Source: Opitutus sp.
GTDB lineage: Bacteria > Verrucomicrobiota > Verrucomicrobiia > Opitutales > Opitutaceae
DNA: 37,992 nucleotides
Direction: 5' to 3'
Assembly (NCBI GenBank): GCA_025361365.1
Contig: JANYAM010000011.1
Coordinates: forward strand, 1-37,992
The position numbers and the translations under genes were made by a program. The stretch's first letter is position 1, and the number at the start of each line of letters is the position of its first letter. This document shows, piece by piece, positions 1-13,862 of the stretch. Under the pieces are notes generated by a model, which was not told the DNA's origin, made no database searches, and saw only the letters and a program-made list of their open reading frames with translations.

Positions 1-678
1 GAGACCAAGCTGAAATATTCCGGCCCCAAGCCGCCCTACGCCAACCTCGACGTCGACGCCAAATACAGCTGGCTCAAGACGCCGCGCTGGAAGGGGCACG
101 CCATGGAGGTCGGTCCGCTCGCGCGGATGCTCGTCGGCTACGCCGCCGGCACCCCCGAGATCAAGGACGCCGTGACCGAGACCCTCGCGGCACTCAAGGC
201 GCCCGCCACCGTGCTTTTCTCCACGCTCGGCCGCACTGCGGCCCGCGCGATCGAGTCACGGCTCGCGGCGCGCTGGGGTCTGGAGTTTTACGACCAGCTG
301 CTCGCCAACATCAAGGCGGGCGACACGCGCACCTTCACCCGCGACAAGTGGGAGCCGGCCTCCTGGCCCACGACTTGCAAGGGCGTCGGCACGAGCGAGG
401 CGCCCCGCGGCGCACTGGCGCACTGGATTGTCATCAACGACCAGAAAATCGCCAACTACCAGCTGGTGGTCCCTAGCACCTGGAACGCGTCGCCCCGCGA
501 CGCGAAGGGCCAGCGCTCGGCCTACGAGGCCTCGCTCATCGGCACGCCGGTGCACGATCCGCAACAGCCCCTCGAGATCATCCGCACCATCCACTCATTC
601 GACCCCTGTCTCGCCTGCGCCGTCCACCTCTATGAGGACAAGAAGGAAATCGCGCGGCACGAACTGATGGTCAACTGA
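1..678 (+). CDS. hyaB: [NiFe]-hydrogenase large subunit, C-terminal part (5' truncated by window edge)
   Basis: Open frame from base 1; C-terminal DPCLACAVH motif typical of NiFe hydrogenase large subunits; followed by hyaC/hyaD-like genes. Confidence 0.95.
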   Translation, partial: ETKLKYSGPKPPYANLDVDAKYSWLKTPRWKGHAMEVGPLARMLVGYAAGTPEIKDAVTETLAALKAPATVLFSTLGRTAARAIESRLAARWGLEFYDQLLANIKAGDTRTFTRDKWEPASWPTTCKGVGTSEAPRGALAHWIVINDQKIANYQLVVPSTWNASPRDAKGQRSAYEASLIGTPVHDPQQPLEIIRTIHSFDPCLACAVHLYEDKKEIARHELMVN

Positions 679-693
679 CCCGGAGGCTTACCC

Positions 694-1458
694 ATGAATG
701 CCTCGCACGATTACCAACGCGTCTATGTCTGGGAACAGCCGGTGCGCTGGTTCCACTGGATCAACGCGGCCAGCATCACCGCGCTCGGCGTCACCGGCTG
801 GCTGATCGCGCACCCGCCGGGCCTGCTCAACGCCGGCGAGGCCTCGGGCAGTTTCTGGTTTGGCACCGTGCGCTTCGTGCACTTCGCGGTGGGCTATGTG
901 TTCCTGGCGAACTTCGCCTTCCGCCTCTACTGGGCCTTCGCCGGCAACAAATACGCCAGCTGGCGCAATTTCCTGCCGCTGCGGAAAGCGCAGGTCCGGC
1001 AGATCTGGGACGTGCTGAAGGTCGACATCATGCAGTCGAGCGACAAGCCCGTGCACACGCTCGGCCACAACTCGGTGGCCTACTTCACCTACGCGGGCAC
1101 GGGCCTGCTGACGCTGTTCCAGATTGTCTCCGGCTTCGCGCTCTATGCCTCGATGAGTTCGTCGGCTTTTCCCCACCTGTTCGCGTGGCTCGTGCCGGTC
1201 TTTGGCAGCGAGCAGAACCTGCGCCTGTTCCATTACGCGGCGCTGTGGGCCTTCATCGTCTTCACCCTGATCCATATCTACCTCGTGTTCTACCACGACT
1301 ACGTTGAGGGCCACGGCGTGATGTCGTCGATCATCGGCGGCTGGAAGTTCATGGAGAAGCACAAGGCCGCGGCCGAGGAGGCCCACGGCATCTCGGCCTT
1401 CCCCGAGGTCAAGGCCGCGCCGCCCCCGGTGCCGGCCAAACCGCACGCGACCCGCTGA
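694..1458 (+). CDS. hyaC: Ni/Fe-hydrogenase b-type cytochrome subunit
   Basis: YVWEQPVRWFHWINAASITAL N-terminus, multiple TM segments, membrane His residues; directly after the large subunit. Confidence 0.93.
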   Translation: MNASHDYQRVYVWEQPVRWFHWINAASITALGVTGWLIAHPPGLLNAGEASGSFWFGTVRFVHFAVGYVFLANFAFRLYWAFAGNKYASWRNFLPLRKAQVRQIWDVLKVDIMQSSDKPVHTLGHNSVAYFTYAGTGLLTLFQIVSGFALYASMSSSAFPHLFAWLVPVFGSEQNLRLFHYAALWAFIVFTLIHIYLVFYHDYVEGHGVMSSIIGGWKFMEKHKAAAEEAHGISAFPEVKAAPPPVPAKPHATR

Positions 1459-1461
1459 GCC

Positions 1462-1995
1462 ATGGCCGCACTGCTCGATTCCCCGCTCGTTGGCGAAGCC
1501 AACTCCGCCGCTCCCCAGGGCACGGTGGGCGACCGCGTGCTCGTGCTCGGCGTCGGCAACCTGCTCATGGGCGACGAGGGCGTGGGCATCCATATTCTCC
1601 GCCGGCTCGAGCGCGAACGGCCGGTCGCCGGCGTGCGCCTGCTCGATGGCGGCACCGGCGGGGTCAACCTGCTCACGGAGTTCGACGGCGCGGACGACAT
1701 CGTCATGATCGACGCGACCCGCGACGGCCGGCGGGCCGGCACCATCACTTTCCTTCAGCCTGAATTCGTCGGTGACCTTCCGCGTGGGTTGGGAGCCCAT
1801 GACTTTGGGTTGAAGGATCTCTTTGCCGCAGCCGCCCTGCTGGGCCGGCTGCCCCGGATCCACCTCTACACCATTGCGGTGGAGGAGGTGAGGCCGATGT
1901 GCACCGAACTGTCCCCAGCCGTGGCGGCGATGGTGCCGGCGGTAGTGCGCGCGGTGCATACGCACGCCGCCCGGCTGGCGGCTACTCTCCGATGA
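1462..1995 (+). CDS. hyaD: Hydrogenase maturation protease
   Basis: VLGVGNLLMGDEGVGIHILRRLE and LDGGTGG motifs of the HyaD/HupD family. Confidence 0.95.
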   Translation: MAALLDSPLVGEANSAAPQGTVGDRVLVLGVGNLLMGDEGVGIHILRRLERERPVAGVRLLDGGTGGVNLLTEFDGADDIVMIDATRDGRRAGTITFLQPEFVGDLPRGLGAHDFGLKDLFAAAALLGRLPRIHLYTIAVEEVRPMCTELSPAVAAMVPAVVRAVHTHAARLAATLR

Positions 1996-2681
1996 TCCCG
2001 GAATTCCACGCGCACACCCTCGACGCACCGCAGATGTCCGTGCTGCTGCTCGGCACGGCGGGGGTCGCCATCCTGCACACGCTGGCCGGCCCGGATCATT
2101 ACCTGCCGTTCATCTTCATGGGCAAGGCCCGCCGCTGGTCGGTGGCGCGCACCACGTTCTGGACCGTCCTCTGCGGCCTCGGCCACGTTGGCAGCTCCGT
2201 CGCGCTCGCGCTGCTCGGCGTGATGCTGGGTTACGGCCTGGAGCGCGTGCAATTCATCGAGGGTTTCCGCGGCAACCTTGCCGCGTGGGCCATGATCGCC
2301 TTCGGGTTGGTCTACCTGGTGTGGGGCCTGAAGCGCGCCGCGCGGCACCGGCCGCACGCCCACGGGCACGACCATGGGCACGGGGAGACGGAGGGCTTCC
2401 GGCTCACGCCGTGGATCCTCTTCACTATTTTTGTCTTCGGTCCCTGCGAGACCATGATTCCGCTGGTGATGTATCCCGCCGCCCGCGGCAGCTGGGCCGA
2501 CGTGTGGATCGTGGTCGCCAGCTTCAGTGTGCTGACGGTCGGCACGATGCTCGTCGTGGTGCTGCTCGCCCTGCAGGGCATCCGCCTGCTGCCCGAGTTG
2601 CAGTTGAGCCGCTACAGCCATGCGCTGGCCGGCGGCACGGTCCTGCTCGCGGGTTGCGCCATCCAATTCCTCGGGCTGTAG
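1992..2681 (+). CDS. Polytopic membrane protein with His-rich loop (UreH/NicO/TauE-like, putative nickel or metal permease)
   Basis: ATGA overlap with hyaD stop; HTLAGPDHYLPF motif; loop RHRPHAHGHDHGHGE; several TM segments. True start taken at 1992, not the ORF-track start 1899. Confidence 0.75.
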   Translation: MIPEFHAHTLDAPQMSVLLLGTAGVAILHTLAGPDHYLPFIFMGKARRWSVARTTFWTVLCGLGHVGSSVALALLGVMLGYGLERVQFIEGFRGNLAAWAMIAFGLVYLVWGLKRAARHRPHAHGHDHGHGETEGFRLTPWILFTIFVFGPCETMIPLVMYPAARGSWADVWIVVASFSVLTVGTMLVVVLLALQGIRLLPELQLSRYSHALAGGTVLLAGCAIQFLGL

Positions 2682-2689
2682 GCCCGCTT

Positions 2690-2723
2690 GTGCATTCCTT
2701 GCGGAGTGCTGTGCATTATTTGG
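2690..2723 (-). promoter_or_regulatory. 21-bp-spaced direct repeat between the permease and araC copy 1
   Basis: Minus-strand CCAAATAATGCAC (2723-2711) and GCAAGGAATGCAC (2702-2690), 21 bp apart. Confidence 0.45.
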
Positions 2724-2776: not shown

Positions 2777-3670
2777 ATGCCCGTTTCCCTCGCTCCCCGC
2801 CCGCCGCGCCCGCTGGTCGAGCAGCTCCGCCGGTCGCAGATCTATCGCGACTACGAGAAGGCGTTTCGCGAGACCACGGGCCTGCCGCTGGCGCTGCGCG
2901 GCAAGGGGAATTTCAACCTGCCCCACCACGGCGACCCGAACGAGAATCCCTTCTGCGCCCTGATGGCCGGCACCAACCACACCTGCGCCTCCTGCCTGCA
3001 GCAGCAGCAAAAAGTGGAGGACGCGGCGGGCGCGAGCCTGAAGACGCTCCGGTGCGCCGTCGGGCTGTGCGACTCCGCCGTGCCGGTGCGGGTCGGCGAT
3101 GACCTCGTCGCCTTTCTCCAGACCGGCCAGATCCTGCTGCGCAAGCCTACCGCCGCCCAGGTGCGCCGGCTGACGGGGTTGCTGCGGCGGTACGGTGTCG
3201 AGACGGACCTGCCGCGGTTCGCGGAGGCCTTCGGCCGAAGCCGCGTGGTCTCGCCGAAGCAATACCAGTCCATCCTGCAGCTGCTCACCATTTTTGCCCA
3301 GCACCTCGGCACGCTCAGCAACCAGCTCGCGGTGCAGGAGGAGGCGCGCGAGGCGCCCGCGATCGGCCGGGCCCGGGCCTACATCACGGAGCACCACGCC
3401 GAGGAGATGTCGCTCACGCAGGTCGCCACGGCCGTCAACATGAGCGCGTTTTATTTCTGCAAGAGTTTCCGCAAGGCGACCGGCCTGACATTCACCGACT
3501 ACGTGGCGCGGGTGCGGGTGGAGAAGGTCAAGGAGCTGCTGCTCAACCCCAACAAGCGCGTGAGCGAGGCCGCCTACGAGGCCGGCTTCCAGTCGCTCTC
3601 GCAGTTCAACCGCGTGTTCCGGCGTGTCGCCGGCGAGCCGCCCTCGGCCTATCGCGGCAAGCTCGGCTAG
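2777..3670 (+). CDS. PocR-domain AraC-family transcriptional regulator (copy 1)
   Basis: N-terminal PocR-like Cys-containing sensory domain (CALMAGTNHTCASC...CAVGLCDSAVPV..GQIL) and C-terminal AraC HTH (SEAAYEAGFQSLSQFNRVFRRVAGEPPSAYR). Confidence 0.9.
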   Translation: MPVSLAPRPPRPLVEQLRRSQIYRDYEKAFRETTGLPLALRGKGNFNLPHHGDPNENPFCALMAGTNHTCASCLQQQQKVEDAAGASLKTLRCAVGLCDSAVPVRVGDDLVAFLQTGQILLRKPTAAQVRRLTGLLRRYGVETDLPRFAEAFGRSRVVSPKQYQSILQLLTIFAQHLGTLSNQLAVQEEAREAPAIGRARAYITEHHAEEMSLTQVATAVNMSAFYFCKSFRKATGLTFTDYVARVRVEKVKELLLNPNKRVSEAAYEAGFQSLSQFNRVFRRVAGEPPSAYRGKLG

Positions 3671-4131
3671 GGATGGGCGTGGTGCGTGTGACCGCCCGGA
3701 GCCGGGTGCGCGTGCGCGGCGGGTCGGGACTGACAGAGGGCGCAGAAGGACTCGATCTCGCGGCGGGACATATGATCCAGCACCTGCTCGAGGCAGGCCA
3801 GGGCTTCCTCCCGCGCCGCGTGGCTGAGGCCCGGGGTCGCCGCCTGCGCTCCGACGAGGGCCTCACGCAACGCCTGCCGGCCGGCGCCGAGATAAGCCAG
3901 CCACGGGTTCAGGCCGCACGGGCAATGCGGGACGTAAGACCGGGGGTGCGCGCGTGGCGACCAGAGCGCCAGATCCTTGAAGATCTCATCCAGGCTGCGG
4001 TCCAGCAGGTGCACGAGCGTGTCCGGGTTCGCCAGCGGCGAGGACGGCCGCTCGAGCCGCAACAGGGTTTCCCAGGCGGCGCGGATGGCGGGGCGCTGCG
4101 CCGCGAGGGCCTGGAGAATGGCGGTTTCCAC
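3667..4131 (-). CDS. Uncharacterised small Cys-motif protein with His-rich C-terminus (paralogue A)
   Basis: GTG start; CPCGL and CALC motifs, tail HAHPAPGGHTHHAHP; shares ordered motifs with the protein at 8290-8733; convergent with araC copy 1, overlapping 3667-3670. Confidence 0.75.
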   Translation of the reverse strand: METAILQALAAQRPAIRAAWETLLRLERPSSPLANPDTLVHLLDRSLDEIFKDLALWSPRAHPRSYVPHCPCGLNPWLAYLGAGRQALREALVGAQAATPGLSHAAREEALACLEQVLDHMSRREIESFCALCQSRPAAHAHPAPGGHTHHAHP

Positions 4132-4137
4132 GCCCCT

Positions 4138-4199
4138 AGCTTACCGCGCGGGCCGCGCCGCCGCTCACCGTCCCTTGCCATTTGTCCGCCGTCAATTGC
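4138..4199 (-). promoter_or_regulatory. 21-bp-spaced direct repeat upstream of paralogue A with -10-like TAAGCT
   Basis: Minus-strand GCAATTGACGGCG (4199-4187) and GCAAGGGACGGTG (4178-4166), 21 bp apart; TAAGCT at 4143-4138. Confidence 0.5.
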
Positions 4200-4239: not shown

Positions 4240-5205
4240 TCAGGCGGCGTGCGCCGCGATCCGATGGTGGCCCGTGCTGCGGGCGGGGGCGTGCAGCTGG
4301 TCGCGGTAGTGGCTCGGGGACTCGCCGACGATCCGGTGGAAGACGCGGTTGAACTGCGAGAGGGACTGGAAGCCGGCCTCGTAGGCGGCCTCGCTCACGC
4401 GCTTGTAGGGGTTGAGCAGCAGCTGCTTCACGGCCTCGACGCGCTGGCGGGAGAGATATTCCGTGAAGTTGAGACCCGTGCCCTTCTTGAAGTTTTTACA
4501 GAAGTAGAACGAGCTCATGCCAACCGCCGAGGAGACCTGGGCGAGGGAGAGGTCGTCGGACAGGTGCGCGGCGATGTAGGCGCGGGCGCGAGAGATCACC
4601 GGCGCCTCGGCGAGCGATTGCTTGACCATGAGCTGGTTGCTCAGGGCCGCGAGTTGCTGGGCGAAGATCGCGAGGAGCTGGAGGGTGGCGTCGTATTGGG
4701 CGCGGAGGACCACGCGCGATTGCTTGAAGGCGGCGCTGATTTCCTTCCGGTCGAGGGTGGGCTCCAATTTGACGGCTTGCCGGACGGCCTCGTTGGTTTC
4801 GGCGGCGGTGGGCAGGTGGAACAGCACCTGGCCGGTCTGGAGGTAGGCGACGATCTTTTCGCCGAGGCGGATTGGCACGGCGGACTCGTTGAGCCCGGCA
4901 AAGCACTGGGCGGTGCCCGGCTGCGCACAGGCGGTCTGCTCGAGGCGTTGCTGCAGGTCGAGGCACGCGGCGCAGGTCTTGTTGCGGCCGGCCAGCAGGG
5001 CGCAGAGGGGGTTGCCGAGCTTGGCGCCCTGCATGGGCGGCTGGAAGGAGCCGGCCGCGCGCAGGGAGAGAGGCAGGCCGGTGATGGACTGGAAGGCGCG
5101 CTGGTAGTCGCGGAAGATCTCGGAGGACTGGAGCAAGGCGACGAACGCAGTGGCTTCGCGGAGCGCGGTATCGGCGGGGGCGGGGAGGGAAGTCGTGGTT
5201 TCCAT
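4240..5205 (-). CDS. PocR-domain AraC-family transcriptional regulator (copy 2)
   Basis: Same architecture as 2777-3670; near-identical HTH (SEAAYEAGFQSLSQFNRVFHRIVGESPSHYR); TATAGT -10-like at 5219-5214. Confidence 0.9.
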   Translation of the reverse strand: METTTSLPAPADTALREATAFVALLQSSEIFRDYQRAFQSITGLPLSLRAAGSFQPPMQGAKLGNPLCALLAGRNKTCAACLDLQQRLEQTACAQPGTAQCFAGLNESAVPIRLGEKIVAYLQTGQVLFHLPTAAETNEAVRQAVKLEPTLDRKEISAAFKQSRVVLRAQYDATLQLLAIFAQQLAALSNQLMVKQSLAEAPVISRARAYIAAHLSDDLSLAQVSSAVGMSSFYFCKNFKKGTGLNFTEYLSRQRVEAVKQLLLNPYKRVSEAAYEAGFQSLSQFNRVFHRIVGESPSHYRDQLHAPARSTGHHRIAAHAA

Positions 5206-5368
5206 GAGCCCCCACTATACCAGCCCGCGCGGTTTCGCGTAATTGGAGGCGGGGCGGTTTCGGACTAGGGAAAATCTTTAGGCCGGCTAGGCGCCGGGAT
5301 TGTCCGCTCTTGCGCCCCCGTTGCCGCGTGTTACCCGTTCAGGGGTGCCTGCCAAGAGATATGCCGAG

Positions 5369-6409
5369 ATGACGAAGGACGAGCTGGTGGCCGCGGAGGC
5401 CAGCTCGGAGCAACGCCTGCTCACGACCATGAGCGAGCTCAGGAACATCAAGGCGGCGCTCGACGAGCACTCCATCGTGGCGATCACCGACGCGGCCGGC
5501 CGCATCACCTACGTCAACGACAAGTTCTGCACCATCTCGCAATACTCGCGGGAGGAGCTGCTGGGCCAGGACCACCGCATCATCAATTCCCACCACCATC
5601 CGAAGACCTTCTTCCGCGACCTGTGGGGGACGATCGGCCGCGGCCACGTGTGGCGCGGCGAGATCAAGAACCGCGCCAAGGACGGCTCGTTCTACTGGGT
5701 GGACACGACGCTCTTCCCGTTCCTCAACGCCACCGGCAAGCCCACGCAGTTCGTCGCCATCCGCACCGACACCACCTGGCGCAAGGCGGCCGAGGCGCAG
5801 ATCATCGAGATCACCGAGAACGGGCAGCGCCAGATCGGCGAGGACCTGCACGACGGCCTCGGCCAGCAGCTCACGGCGGTCGAGATCCTCTGTGCCGGCC
5901 TGAAGGAGGACGTGGCGGGCACCCCGCGCCTCGCCAAACAAGTGGACCGCATCGGCCGGTTCCTCCGCGAATCGATCAGCCAGGTGCGTTCGCTCGCCCG
6001 CGGCCTGGTGCCGGTCAGTGACCGGCCGGACGCCCTCTGGGCGAGCTTGGTGGAACTCGCCGACCGGACCAACGCCCCCGGCCGGCTGGAGTGCAAGTTC
6101 GACTCTCCGGTGGTGCTGGTGGACGACCACAACACGGCGGGCCAGTTCTACCGCATCGCGCAGGAGGCGGTGAACAACGCCCTGAAGCACAGCCGGGCCA
6201 AGCGCATTACCCTGACCCTGGTCCGCACCGCGCATACCCTGGAACTCGGCGTCGCGGACAACGGCCGCGGTTTTCCCAAGGTCCTGCGTCCGGGCATGGG
6301 CCTGCAGGTGATGCGGCACCGCGCCAGCGTGATCAACGCCGAGCTCACGATCGACGCCCGGCCCGGCCAGGGCACCACCATCAGCTGCCGGGTGCCCATG
6401 CTAAAATGA
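5369..6409 (+). CDS. PAS-domain sensor histidine kinase (NarX/DegS-type HisKA_3)
   Basis: PAS motif (ITDAAGRITYVNDKFCTISQYSREELLGQDHRIINS), phosphoacceptor region IGEDLHDGLGQQLTAVE, ATPase ADNGRGF; ATG at 5369 preferred over TTG at 5300. Confidence 0.9.
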   Translation: MTKDELVAAEASSEQRLLTTMSELRNIKAALDEHSIVAITDAAGRITYVNDKFCTISQYSREELLGQDHRIINSHHHPKTFFRDLWGTIGRGHVWRGEIKNRAKDGSFYWVDTTLFPFLNATGKPTQFVAIRTDTTWRKAAEAQIIEITENGQRQIGEDLHDGLGQQLTAVEILCAGLKEDVAGTPRLAKQVDRIGRFLRESISQVRSLARGLVPVSDRPDALWASLVELADRTNAPGRLECKFDSPVVLVDDHNTAGQFYRIAQEAVNNALKHSRAKRITLTLVRTAHTLELGVADNGRGFPKVLRPGMGLQVMRHRASVINAELTIDARPGQGTTISCRVPMLK

Positions 6410-7119
6410 AACCAGCCTCGAAAAAGAAGCGGGCGGCGCCCGCCGCCGCCCCGGCCGCCGCCCGGCGCCAGCGCATCCTGATCGTGGACGATCATCCGTT
6501 CATGCGGGCGGGACTGGCGCAGCTGATCGACCGGCAGACCGATCTTCTCGTCTGCGGCGAGGCGGGCAATCCGGCGGAGGCCCTGCTCCGGCTGGCCGCC
6601 GGTGGCGTGGACCTGATCCTGACGGACATGACCATGCCCGGCCGCAGCGGCCTGGACTTTCTCAAGGATTTGCTGGCCCAACATCCCGCGCTGCCCGTCC
6701 TGGTGGTGTCGATGCACGACGAGGTCGTCTACGCCGAGCGGGCGCTGCGGGCCGGCGCGCGCGGCTACATCATGAAGGAGGCCGGCGGGGAAAACCTGCT
6801 CGCTGCCATCCGGCAGGTGCTCGGCGGCCAGGTTTACGTCAGCCCCCGGATGTCGGCGCAACTGCTCGACAGTTTCTCCGGCCGCAAGTCGCGACAGGCC
6901 GATTCACCGTTCGGGAAACTGACTGACCGCGAGTTCGAGGTCTTCCAGCTGGTCGGCCACGGCCGCAGCACCCGCGAAATCGCGCAGCAGCTCGGTCTGA
7001 GCACCAAAACGGTCGATGTGCACCGCGCCAATCTCAAGGCGAAGCTCGAGCTGCGCGACACGACCGCGCTGGTCCGGCACGCGGTCCGCTGGGTTGAGAC
7101 GCAGGGCACCGACCGCTAG
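6406..7119 (+). CDS. NarL/FixJ-family response regulator
   Basis: ATGA overlap with the kinase; receiver ILIVDDHPFMRAGL...DMTMPG and LuxR HTH LTDREFEVFQLVGHGRSTREIAQQLGLSTKTVDVHRANLKAKL. Confidence 0.95.
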   Translation: MKPASKKKRAAPAAAPAAARRQRILIVDDHPFMRAGLAQLIDRQTDLLVCGEAGNPAEALLRLAAGGVDLILTDMTMPGRSGLDFLKDLLAQHPALPVLVVSMHDEVVYAERALRAGARGYIMKEAGGENLLAAIRQVLGGQVYVSPRMSAQLLDSFSGRKSRQADSPFGKLTDREFEVFQLVGHGRSTREIAQQLGLSTKTVDVHRANLKAKLELRDTTALVRHAVRWVETQGTDR

Positions 7120-7148: not shown

Positions 7149-7210
7149 GCAAGATATGAGCAGCGAACGGCAAGCAACCACCAGCGGAGGCCCGGAAATA
7201 CTGTAAGACT
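7149..7210 (+). promoter_or_regulatory. 21-bp-spaced direct repeat (AraC-type site) upstream of the DksA/TraR-like gene
   Basis: GCAAGATATGAGC (7149-7161) and GCAAGCAACCACC (7170-7182), 21 bp apart; TAAGACT from 7204. Confidence 0.5.
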
Positions 7211-7237: not shown

Positions 7238-7552
7238 ATGTCCAAATCCAAGCCTGCCCGCCCGCGCCGTGACCAGCTCCGCGTGGACCCGCAGTGGGCC
7301 TGGCATTATCGCACCCTGCTGGCGTTGCGCGACCATCTGATCCAGGAACAAAAGTCGCCGCAATCCGCCGACCGCTTCGACCGCGATTTTGTCCGCGCGT
7401 TGCTGGCCCGCGAGCCGGATGCGCTGGGCGAGATCAACGCGGCGCTCGAGCGCATCCTGCGCGGCACCTATGGCGTGTGCGAGGTGACCGGCCGGCCCAT
7501 CGCACCGACCCGGCTGCGGGCCGCGCCGTGGACGCGCCTTCGGTCCCGCTGA
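7238..7552 (+). CDS. DksA/TraR-like protein lacking a complete zinc finger
   Basis: LERILRGTYGVCEVTGRPIAPTRLRAAPWTR matches the DksA/TraR C-terminal region; stops before a second Cys pair. Confidence 0.75.
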   Translation: MSKSKPARPRRDQLRVDPQWAWHYRTLLALRDHLIQEQKSPQSADRFDRDFVRALLAREPDALGEINAALERILRGTYGVCEVTGRPIAPTRLRAAPWTRLRSR

Positions 7553-7591: not shown

Positions 7592-7653
7592 CCAAGATAT
7601 GCCTCGGTTTGGGCAATCGGTGCCCAGCATTGCGAAGACCGTTGCCGTAAGCT
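7592..7653 (+). promoter_or_regulatory. 21-bp-spaced direct repeat upstream of the cytochrome c gene
   Basis: CCAAGATATGCCT (7592-7604) and GCAATCGGTGCCC (7613-7625), 21 bp apart; TAAGCT at 7648-7653. Confidence 0.5.
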
Positions 7654-7665
7654 GTCGCCACTATC

Positions 7666-8277
7666 ATGAAAACACCGCGCCTAGTTTCCGTTGTTGTGGT
7701 GGCTGGCCTTGCCGTGGCGGCCGCATTGGTCGCCCTTAAATTCACCCGGGCCACCCCCGGCGTGCCGCCGGTGGCTGAGGGCGGAAAGCCCGCCGCCACC
7801 CCCGGCCGGGAGAGTGCGGAGACGCACCCGGAGATCCCGGCCCGGACTGAGGCGGAGCTGGCCCGCGACGAAGCCGAGCTCGCGGCCATGTTCACCATCG
7901 TGGGCAAGCCCAAGCCCGCGCTCGCCGCCCCGGCCTTGGATGCCCAAGGGGAACGCGGCAAAAAAGTTTACCTCGGTCTGTGCTACGCTTGCCACCAGCC
8001 CGATGGCCGGGGTCTGCCGGGCACCTTTCCCATGCTGGCCAAATCCGACTTCCTGCTCGCCAGCCGGGAGCGCGCCATCGGCATCGTGCTGCAGGGCCTG
8101 ACCGGCCCCGTCACGGTCAACGGCCAGACCCTCAACAGCGCCATGCCGCCGCAGGCGGCCGTGCTCACGGACGAACAGATCGCCGATGTGCTGACCTATG
8201 TCTTCAACGCGTGGGGCAACCGCGGCGAGCCCTTCAACCCTGCCCAGGTCCGGGCGATTCGTCACCCGGGACACTAG
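7666..8277 (+). CDS. Membrane-anchored mono-haem c-type cytochrome
   Basis: N-terminal TM anchor; CYACH haem motif; distal SAMPPQAAVLTDEQIADVLTYVFNAWG typical of class I cytochrome c. Confidence 0.9.
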   Translation: MKTPRLVSVVVVAGLAVAAALVALKFTRATPGVPPVAEGGKPAATPGRESAETHPEIPARTEAELARDEAELAAMFTIVGKPKPALAAPALDAQGERGKKVYLGLCYACHQPDGRGLPGTFPMLAKSDFLLASRERAIGIVLQGLTGPVTVNGQTLNSAMPPQAAVLTDEQIADVLTYVFNAWGNRGEPFNPAQVRAIRHPGH

Positions 8278-8289
8278 CGCGACCACCCT

Positions 8290-8733
8290 TCAACCGGGTT
8301 TCCCGCCCGGCCGCAACGAGCACAGTGCACCGCCGCGGTGGTTGCACACGTCGCACAGCGCGGTCATTTCCTCGCGGGCGAGCTGGTTGAAGCAGTGCAG
8401 TACCTCGCCGCGGGCGGCGCCCAGTTCTGCGGGCAATGTCTCCCGCAGGGCGCGGGCACCGGCCAGGTAATATGTCAGCAGCAAATGCAGCCCGCAGTGG
8501 CAGCCGGTGCGGGCGTAGTTGAACCGGCCAGGCCTCTCGCGGTGGCCGGCCGGGGCCCCACCCAAGCGCGAGAGCAGCCGGTCGATCGTGCCATCCACGA
8601 GGAGCACGAGCATCTCGGGCGTCACCAGCCCCGCGCCGGGCGGCTCGGCCGGGGCCTGGTGGAGCCGTCCGGCCCAATCCCGCTTGAGCACGGGCCGCAG
8701 GGCGTCGAGTCGGGCAACCAGGCCGGGATCCAT
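8290..8733 (-). CDS. Uncharacterised small Cys-motif protein (paralogue B)
   Basis: CHCGL...AGARALRETL...CFNQL..EEMTALCDVCNHR mirrors paralogue A; ATG at 8733 supported by identical promoter spacing in both paralogues. Confidence 0.75.
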   Translation of the reverse strand: MDPGLVARLDALRPVLKRDWAGRLHQAPAEPPGAGLVTPEMLVLLVDGTIDRLLSRLGGAPAGHRERPGRFNYARTGCHCGLHLLLTYYLAGARALRETLPAELGAARGEVLHCFNQLAREEMTALCDVCNHRGGALCSLRPGGKPG

Positions 8734-8739
8734 GCCAGC

Positions 8740-8801
8740 ATGATGCCACCGCCGGCCCGGGGCGGCTGGGCACGGCTTGCCCAAAGGTGCGCACATCTTG
8801 C
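8740..8801 (-). promoter_or_regulatory. 21-bp-spaced direct repeat upstream of paralogue B
   Basis: Minus-strand GCAAGATGTGCGC (8801-8789) and GCAAGCCGTGCCC (8780-8768); CATCAT -10-like at 8745-8740. Confidence 0.5.
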
Positions 8802-8809
8802 GGCGCGGA

Positions 8810-8871
8810 GCAAAAAATGCGCGGAGATGGGCAAGGGCTGCAGAGCGGGCCGGGCCGCCGGCTGGTAGGGT
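8810..8871 (+). promoter_or_regulatory. 21-bp-spaced direct repeat upstream of ccoS-ccoNOQP
   Basis: GCAAAAAATGCGC (8810-8822) and GCAAGGGCTGCAG (8831-8843); TAGGGT at 8866-8871. Confidence 0.5.
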
Positions 8872-8890
8872 AGGGCCGACATACCACGCC

Positions 8891-9163
8891 ATGTCCGTCA
8901 TTCCGCTTACCATCTTCTTCAGCCTGCTCCTCGCCGGCCTGTTCATCGGCCTGTTCGCCCACGAGCAGCATCGCCGCCGTTTCGCGAGCGCCGAGCGCGA
9001 CTCGCTGCTGCCCCTGGCCGACGAGATCCCGCACGCGGTGGGGCGGGGCAGTCATGATCAGGCTCCCGTCTGCGGCTGCCGCAACGGCTCGCGGCCGCCC
9101 TGCACCGACTGCCTGCGGCGCGCGGCCGCCGAGGATCCGGCGTCCGCCCCGGTTTATTTCTAA
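8891..9163 (+). CDS. ccoS: CcoS-like cbb3 oxidase assembly protein with Cys-rich C-terminal extension
   Basis: Single N-terminal TM, position directly before ccoNO; tail CGCRNGSRPPCTDC. Confidence 0.7.
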   Translation: MSVIPLTIFFSLLLAGLFIGLFAHEQHRRRFASAERDSLLPLADEIPHAVGRGSHDQAPVCGCRNGSRPPCTDCLRRAAAEDPASAPVYF

Positions 9164-9181: not shown

Positions 9182-11494
<2,313 letters not shown>

Positions 11495-12347: not shown

Positions 12348-13862
12348 ATGAGCGCCGAAATCATCCCTCCCGTTGCGCCCGCCCGTCGCCCGGCCCGTCA
12401 TGGACCGGCGGTTGACTCCGTCACGACGATCAATGCCGACGGGTCGCGCTATTTTCTATATCCGGCCGACGCCCGCGGCCCGTTCACGCACTGGCGGCGG
12501 ATCAGCGCCTACCTGCTGATCGCCTTCTACCTGCTGCTGCCCTGGATTCCGGTCAACGGCGCGCCCGCCGTCTTCCTCGACCTCGCCGAGCGGCGTTTTC
12601 ATTTCTTCGGCTACACGCTGGCGGCGCAGGACGCCTGGCTGCTGTTCTTCGGCGTCAGCGGCCTGGGCTTCGGCCTGTTCTTCCTCACCGCGCTCTTCGG
12701 CCGATTGTGGTGCGGCTGGGCCTGCCCGCAGACCGTGTTCCTCGACCACGTCTACCGCCGCATTGAGCGCTGGCTGGAGGGGGATGCCCCTGCGCGCCGC
12801 GCGCTGAAACTCGCGCCGCTGACCGCCGGCAAGTTTTTCCGCCGCGTCGCCAAGCACGCGCTCTACGCCGTGGTGTCGCTCGCGATCACCCATCTCTTCC
12901 TCGCGTATTTCGTCAGCCTGCCGGAGTTGTGGTCGTTCATGCACGAGGCCCCGGGCGAACACTGGGCGGCCTTCCTCTTCGTCTTCACCGCCGCGGGTCT
13001 CCTTTATCTCAACTTTGCCTGGTTCCGCGAGCAGCTCTGCATCGTCATCTGCCCCTACGGCCGGTTGCAGTCGGCGCTGACCGACGACCACACGCTGGTG
13101 ATCGGCTACGACGGCAAACGCGGCGAACCCCGGGGGAAAATCCGCGCAGTACTGGATGGTGCCGGCTTGCCCTCCGTAGCCTTGGCGAAGGAGGGTGCTT
13201 GCATCGACTGCAACCGCTGCGTGCAGGTCTGCCCGACGGGCATCGACATCCGTCACGGTCTCCAGATGGAATGCATCGGCTGCGCGGCGTGCATCGACGC
13301 GTGTGACGAGGTCATGGCCAAGGTGCACCGGCCCGCCGGTCTCATCCGCTACGATTCCTTCGCTGGATTCGGTGGCGGCATCACGCGCTGGGTGCGAGCG
13401 CGCACCTTGCTCTATGGCGTGCTCCTCGCGGTCGGTGCCGCGGTGGCCACGTTTGCCTTCTCGACGGTGAAGCCCGCGAACTTCCTCGTCTACCGCACCG
13501 GCGGCGCGGCGTATTTCGTCGGGCCCGACGAGGTGCGGAACCAGTTCCTGGTGCGCCTCGTCAACAAGCGCACCGTGCCCGCGACGTTCAGTGTCGAGGC
13601 CGAGGGGCTGCCGGCGGGGCTCCGGTCGAGTGGTTTCGCGGCGCCCGTGACGCTGGCGCCGATGGCGGAGTCGGTCAGCCCGCTCGTGCTGGTGGCATCG
13701 CGCAAGGACTACCGCGGGCCGTTCAAGTTTACCGTCCGCGTGCGCGACGCCGCGCGGACCTTCACGCTCGCCCGCGAGGTCGAGTTCATGGGCCCCGACG
13801 CCCGCCTGCTGGAGGAAGGCGCCAAAGAAAAGGAGGACCATGACCGGGAACACAAACACTAG
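12348..13862 (+). CDS. ccoG: Cytochrome c oxidase accessory protein CcoG (4Fe-4S)
   Basis: CGWACPQTVFLDHVYRRIE, CIDCNRCVQVCPTGIDIRHGLQMECIGCAACIDACD. Confidence 0.95.
   Translation: MSAEIIPPVAPARRPARHGPAVDSVTTINADGSRYFLYPADARGPFTHWRRISAYLLIAFYLLLPWIPVNGAPAVFLDLAERRFHFFGYTLAAQDAWLLFFGVSGLGFGLFFLTALFGRLWCGWACPQTVFLDHVYRRIERWLEGDAPARRALKLAPLTAGKFFRRVAKHALYAVVSLAITHLFLAYFVSLPELWSFMHEAPGEHWAAFLFVFTAAGLLYLNFAWFREQLCIVICPYGRLQSALTDDHTLVIGYDGKRGEPRGKIRAVLDGAGLPSVALAKEGACIDCNRCVQVCPTGIDIRHGLQMECIGCAACIDACDEVMAKVHRPAGLIRYDSFAGFGGGITRWVRARTLLYGVLLAVGAAVATFAFSTVKPANFLVYRTGGAAYFVGPDEVRNQFLVRLVNKRTVPATFSVEAEGLPAGLRSSGFAAPVTLAPMAESVSPLVLVASRKDYRGPFKFTVRVRDAARTFTLAREVEFMGPDARLLEEGAKEKEDHDREHKH

Follow-up and report, generated by a model that had tools for sequence, protein, structure and literature searches.

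A divergent promoter with two putative AraC-type operators between gene B and the cbb3 oxidase genes of Opitutus sp., and its candidate PocR-AraC regulators

Gene B, the cco genes and the region between them

The window, i.e. the whole stretch of Opitutus sp. DNA that was analysed, comprises 37,992 nucleotides (contig JANYAM010000011.1). It contains a 157-bp intergenic region flanked by gene B, with its ATG at 8733 on the minus strand, and by a gene in the position of ccoS, with its ATG at 8891 on the plus strand. The features discussed below are:

2777-3670, plus strand: PocR-AraC regulator 1, the favoured candidate for the trans-acting factor (PF10114 and PF12833 above cut-off)
3667-4131, minus strand: paralogue A, a member of the B family arranged tail-to-tail with PocR-AraC regulator 1
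4138-4199, minus strand: weak putative operator upstream of paralogue A, with a well-placed -10, TAAGCT (4143-4138); the predicted start is the GTG at 4131
4240-5205, minus strand: PocR-AraC regulator 2, 54% identical to regulator 1 (PF10114 and PF12833 above cut-off)
7149-7210, plus strand: the same putative operator, with a -10-like AAGACT (7205-7210), upstream of a DksA/TraR-like gene (7238-7552)
7592-7653, plus strand: the same putative operator, with the -10 TAAGCT (7648-7653), upstream of a cytochrome c gene (7666-8277)
8290-8733, minus strand: gene B, encoding a helical protein of about 147 aa with conserved CxC and CxxC
8734-8890, both directions: divergent intergenic region of 157 bp between B and the ccoS-like gene
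8745-8740, minus strand: predicted -10 hexamer of B, CATCAT, at the conserved offset
8764-8801, minus strand: putative operator facing B, half-sites 8801-8785 and 8780-8764 in a 21-bp direct repeat
8810-8847, plus strand: putative operator facing ccoS/ccoNO, half-sites 8810-8826 and 8831-8847
8866-8871, plus strand: predicted -10 hexamer of the cco promoter, TAGGGT, at the conserved offset
8891-9163, plus strand: gene for a small membrane protein in the ccoS position
9182-11494, plus strand: ccoNO fusion gene (COX1 and FixO)

The two sites stand back to back, and each displays GCAA-N4-TGC as a direct repeat at 21 bp. The 34-bp site facing B is found at 8801-8768 (-) and reads GCAAGATGTGCGCACCTTTGGGCAAGCCGTGCCC, the one facing ccoS at 8810-8843 (+) and reads GCAAAAAATGCGCGGAGATGGGCAAGGGCTGCAG; 8 bp (8802-8809) separate them. 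The initial annotation had described this gap, the two repeat pairs and the spacer, and all of them lie exactly where it had placed them. Since a half-site is about 17 bp long, each operator is really about 38 bp (8801-8764 and 8810-8847). The name ccoS, taken from the same source, holds as far as gene position and a CcoS-like N terminus go, while no Pfam family matches the product at E<=1. The ccoN and ccoO genes are fused into one gene of 770 aa, and similar full-length matches are found in Myxococcales, Bacteroidota and others.

Distribution of the operator in the genome and among relatives

Without mismatches the simple consensus occurs three times in the window, twice within 8734-8890. 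When one mismatch is allowed the loose consensus gives mostly noise genome-wide, and it was therefore replaced by matrices and by a pattern combining the operator with a -10; over the order, the strict pattern with one mismatch is uninformative beyond the family. A first matrix was seeded on sites from the genome itself. To keep the test from being circular, a second matrix of 62 columns was built exclusively from sites of other genera, 77 in number, which had been gathered with the first matrix. This second matrix scores the ccoS-facing operator at 44.7 and the B-facing one at 42.8, ranks 1 and 2 among approximately 76,000 window positions, while the best score over 40 random Markov-1 windows is 19.4. 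The original matrix finds 103 sites with a score >=20 in 536 kb of DNA from relatives, against an average of 0.07 for 30 column-permuted matrices, a figure that measures specificity and not frequency because the relatives' loci were partly picked for the motif or for B. None of the 48 distinct matches (score >=18) in contigs of the own genome and in the relatives' B loci lies inside a called gene, the genes of the relatives having been called by a simple in-house caller. The strict pattern gives 145 matches in 120 genomes of the family, compared to six for the reversed pattern, and the end of a B-facing match is mostly 44-47 bp away from the B start.

The operator followed by a TA-type -10 is found ten times in the 3.56-Mb genome, and the reversed control not once. 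The ten targets are cco, B, the cytochrome c gene, two multihaem cytochrome genes, usp, hemN, a flavin amine-oxidase-family gene (protoporphyrinogen oxidase-like), a gene for a 2-oxoacid:ferredoxin oxidoreductase (POR-type) and a nirK-like gene. Further targets among the matrix matches are hemA, hypE and a cytochrome c gene divergent from a haem-oxidase-like gene; the names nirK, hypE and haem-oxidase come from reading and general domain matches. The B/cco promoter is one node of a genome-wide regulon, which the initial annotation had missed, and judged by its gene content the operator-bearing set would make up an FNR-like regulon that lacks an FNR-type protein. This presumed low-oxygen gene set, conserved in the family and larger than the B/cco pair, has apparently not been described.

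On contig C119 of the own genome (G000, L061) a second divergent double operator, at 13206-13239 (-) and 13282-13315 (+), separates a cytochrome c gene from one that is protoporphyrinogen-oxidase-like, and genus g93 (L136, L138) also has paired divergent sites at a cytochrome locus. The first part of the window (1-2681), beside the regulators, encodes a NiFe hydrogenase large subunit, a cytochrome b and a maturation protease. In the relative G012 a hydrogenase small-subunit operon carries its own operator (L079:3499) with a good -10, which suggests that hydrogen oxidation and the cbb3 oxidase are co-regulated. An operator-like site at 2690-2723 (-), with a score of 23.0 in the outside-genus matrix, lies between a HupE-like gene and PocR-AraC 1 and points away from the regulator. 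It is conserved in G012 (L079:8558-8591) and possibly serves autoregulation or an antisense transcript.

The divergent pair between B and cco recurs across the family. Among the named genomes with ccoNO, in a collection where some record names look mislabelled, a strong operator is found upstream of cco in all six loci of the Opitutaceae/Opitutia type, four times as a divergent pair. Several other Verrucomicrobiota have moderate sites at cco, including an Akkermansiaceae locus with a score of 28.2; apart from that locus the remaining ccoNO loci (63 of 64), mostly from other phyla, never score above 15.9. In other families of the order PocR-AraC and ccoNO share a locus with a remotely related B homologue (hhalign probability 89%) and with an operator that has diverged in sequence but keeps the 21-bp layout. 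This operator, CGAAgAATTGCGCA...GTCAGnATATGCGGAGAC, is found in L089-L098 upstream of ccoNO, between the genes for PocR-AraC and the B homologue, and it seems to have diverged in step with the regulator in these families. In two loci from other Verrucomicrobiota (L268, L269) PocR-AraC adjoins cco though the operator of the Opitutaceae type was not detected there, hinting at a link that is phylum-wide.

The recurrence of the pair, together with the second one in the own genome at the cytochrome c and haem-oxidase-like genes, could mean that the back-to-back sites form one composite element, where dimers cooperate or loop and the regulation of B and cco is inseparable. We consider this unlikely. 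Among the relatives the paired sites stand anywhere from 0 to about 29 bp apart, out of helical phase, single sites seem to function elsewhere in the regulon, and in G014 cco has one strong site with no B alongside.

The candidate regulator and the anatomy of the promoters

The search of the genome yielded no more than two proteins with a PocR domain, both of them encoded in the window. B-family genes are present in 69 of the 120 family genomes; in 54 of these 69 no more than 3 kb separates a B from a PocR domain, and such pairs, 55 in all, are without exception arranged tail-to-tail. Four cysteines of the PocR domain, C60, C70, C73 and C93, are invariant in 55 of 55 sequences. The initial annotation had linked B functionally to cbb3, and computational support for such a link comes from the order, where PocR-AraC, a B-family gene and cco are repeatedly found together. 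The protein that binds the operators is most likely one or both of the PocR-AraC proteins of the window, which are favoured on account of the operator geometry typical of the family, the gene neighbourhood conserved across the order and the lack of a strong operator at the cco loci of the PocR-less relatives G028, G032 and G198. Present evidence does not distinguish between the two as the acting paralogue.

It is quite unlikely, in our judgement, that the sites are genuine AraC-type activator sites bound by some other protein of the AraC family, with PocR-AraC as a neighbour that has a separate job. Generic AraC proteins are present in PocR-less relatives, and 17 strict sites occur in 11 genomes without a strong PocR among the matches listed. 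The complete genome G070, in which no PocR domain was detected, has one site, and another AraC protein could thus bind some of the single sites in genomes of this kind. However, seven of the 17 sites belong to G175 and G232, which lack PocR, B and a true ccoNO together; one contig of their sister G210 carries the three, so that the locus seems to be missing or lost in G175 and G232. Further, in several families PocR-AraC adjoins B, cco or both, and the variant of the operator found near it changes from one family to another while the layout stays the same.

The architecture of the promoters was derived from 117 stacked sites. The half-sites are about 17 bp each, with the consensus CAAgAtaTGCgcAgc and CCAAgcggTGCGgAGC directly repeated at 21 bp, and "AGC" continues the second one. 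A -10 stands at a fixed offset (positions 56-61 of the stack), with A in 96 and T in 97 of the 117 sites and a preceding G, as in an extended -10, in 83. The expected -35, 17 bp upstream of the -10, falls at positions 33-38 at the end of the second half-site (21-37), which it overlaps. The stack thus combines a 21-bp direct repeat of half-sites of about 17 bp, a proximal half-site over the -35 and a fixed distance to the -10, and as far as can be read from the DNA this is textbook geometry for a class II activator of the AraC family. The AraC-type layout and the activation of both sides proposed for the B/cco region gain computational support, the -10 spacing being constant across the stack and the divergent double site recurring in relatives.

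An operator that overlaps a promoter could also serve repression, an AraC protein at the -35 blocking the polymerase when oxygen is plentiful, and the sign of regulation is not readable from sequence alone. Repression is nevertheless very unlikely, as the promoters pair poor -35 hexamers with a conserved and frequently extended -10 at a fixed spacing from the half-site, all of which is expected of promoters that depend on an activator. LuxR/NarL-type regulators bind short heptamer sites. Control by the PAS kinase and LuxR-type response regulator encoded nearby (5300-7119) is highly improbable, for although the two lie beside regulon genes and a PAS domain could sense redox, the sites here are 17-bp half-sites at 21 bp and not heptamers, and the pair is absent from the PocR-B-cco loci of several relatives, within the stretch read.

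We therefore prefer, with a probability of about 0.8, to read the region as a divergent promoter pair where either side has its own AraC-type class II operator, belonging to a low-oxygen regulon that would be driven by PocR-AraC. Two regulator monomers would bind the 21-bp direct repeat on each side and switch on that side separately. As the proximal half-site overlaps the -35, the regulator probably takes the place of the weak -35 and recruits RNA polymerase to the extended -10. The same operator would drive the cbb3 oxidase, cytochromes c, haem synthesis, hydrogenase maturation, 2-oxoacid:ferredoxin oxidoreductase, nitrite reductase and usp. The signal is likely to be low oxygen or a redox cue, as read from the respiratory and haem-related target genes only, and may be perceived by the PocR domain through its four invariant cysteines, with B perhaps assisting.

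The geometry of AraC operators, PocR and FNR regulons are already known kinds. At I1-I2 of E. coli araBAD, AraC acts as a class II activator on half-sites of about 17 bp in a 21-bp direct repeat, with the proximal one over the -35. The Opitutus operators resemble I1-I2 in half-site length, repeat and -35 overlap. They differ from it in half-site sequence and in having two divergent operators 8 bp apart, the candidate regulator has a PocR sensor instead of an arabinose domain, and a global respiratory regulon would be controlled rather than one sugar pathway. The FNR, ANR and FixK regulons of Proteobacteria include cbb3 oxidase, hemA, hemN, cytochromes, usp and nitrite reductase. The target set found here overlaps with theirs, whereas the proposed regulator belongs to a different protein family and its site is a direct repeat of asymmetric half-sites rather than the palindrome of FNR. 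FNR itself was rejected as regulator, since the search of the genome yielded a single full-length CRP/FNR-like protein (L081), which by reading does not have the FNR cysteine spacing; an FNR-type operator was also rejected, the directly repeated CAAgAtaTGCgcAgc / CCAAgcggTGCGgAGC not being the palindrome TTGAT-N4-ATCAA.

A PocR domain fused to an AraC helix-turn-helix is also found in PocR of Salmonella and in the PocR-like regulator of Lactobacillus reuteri (PMC3162504). Those proteins control propanediol or glycerol use and vitamin B12 genes, unlike the respiratory and haem targets seen here. The PocR domain has been predicted to sense simple hydrocarbon derivatives (Anantharaman and Aravind, 2005, as cited in PMC5847659 and PMC1592074). 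If the proposed regulon is real, the domain would have a role beyond the sensing of propanediol and hydrocarbons, and an AraC-family protein would perform a task usually given to FNR, ArcA or FixLJ. A search of the open-access literature, with subscription journals mostly outside its scope, found no link of PocR or AraC to cbb3 or to a low-oxygen regulon in Verrucomicrobiota, and the control of low-oxygen respiration in this phylum is apparently undescribed there. The analysis puts a name to a candidate regulator, defines the operator exactly, lists targets and adds an uncharacterised partner family, all of which can be tested in cultured Opitutaceae.

The B family

The initial annotation was right in calling B an unknown Cys protein, as no family was found in Pfam or NCBIfam; nor did PDB sequences, PDB folds or viral folds give a significant match. 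B alone as query against the contig collection found nothing. RsbRD_N was rejected (best E 0.15, in one of 28 members), and so were globin-like and other known folds (best PDB Foldseek E 0.5). CxC and ExxxxCxxC motifs are almost invariant in the family, and the structure model of B is all-helical with a mean pLDDT of 82, consistent with an uncharacterised helical family with four cysteines. The start codon of B coincides with the predicted transcription start, so that the mRNA is probably leaderless, and the position of the start codon of paralogue A suggests the same for A.

Because B appears to be co-activated with cco and is in most cases encoded tail-to-tail with the regulator, it is best regarded, tentatively, as a sensory or feedback partner rather than an oxidase subunit. 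A more far-reaching proposal, to which we give slightly less than even odds, is that PocR-AraC with its four-cysteine sensor and the small cysteine protein B together form a global low-oxygen regulator that takes the place of FNR in Opitutaceae and, as a diverged version, in other Verrucomicrobiota. B would then be an oxygen or redox co-sensor in a feedback loop, translated from a leaderless mRNA and made together with the cbb3 oxidase.

In this lineage the B copy beside cco forms a clade of its own (100/100), apart from paralogue A. One cco-adjacent B homologue (L034, contig C140 of G015, 1135-1569) has an in-frame TAG and is thus probably decayed or misassembled.
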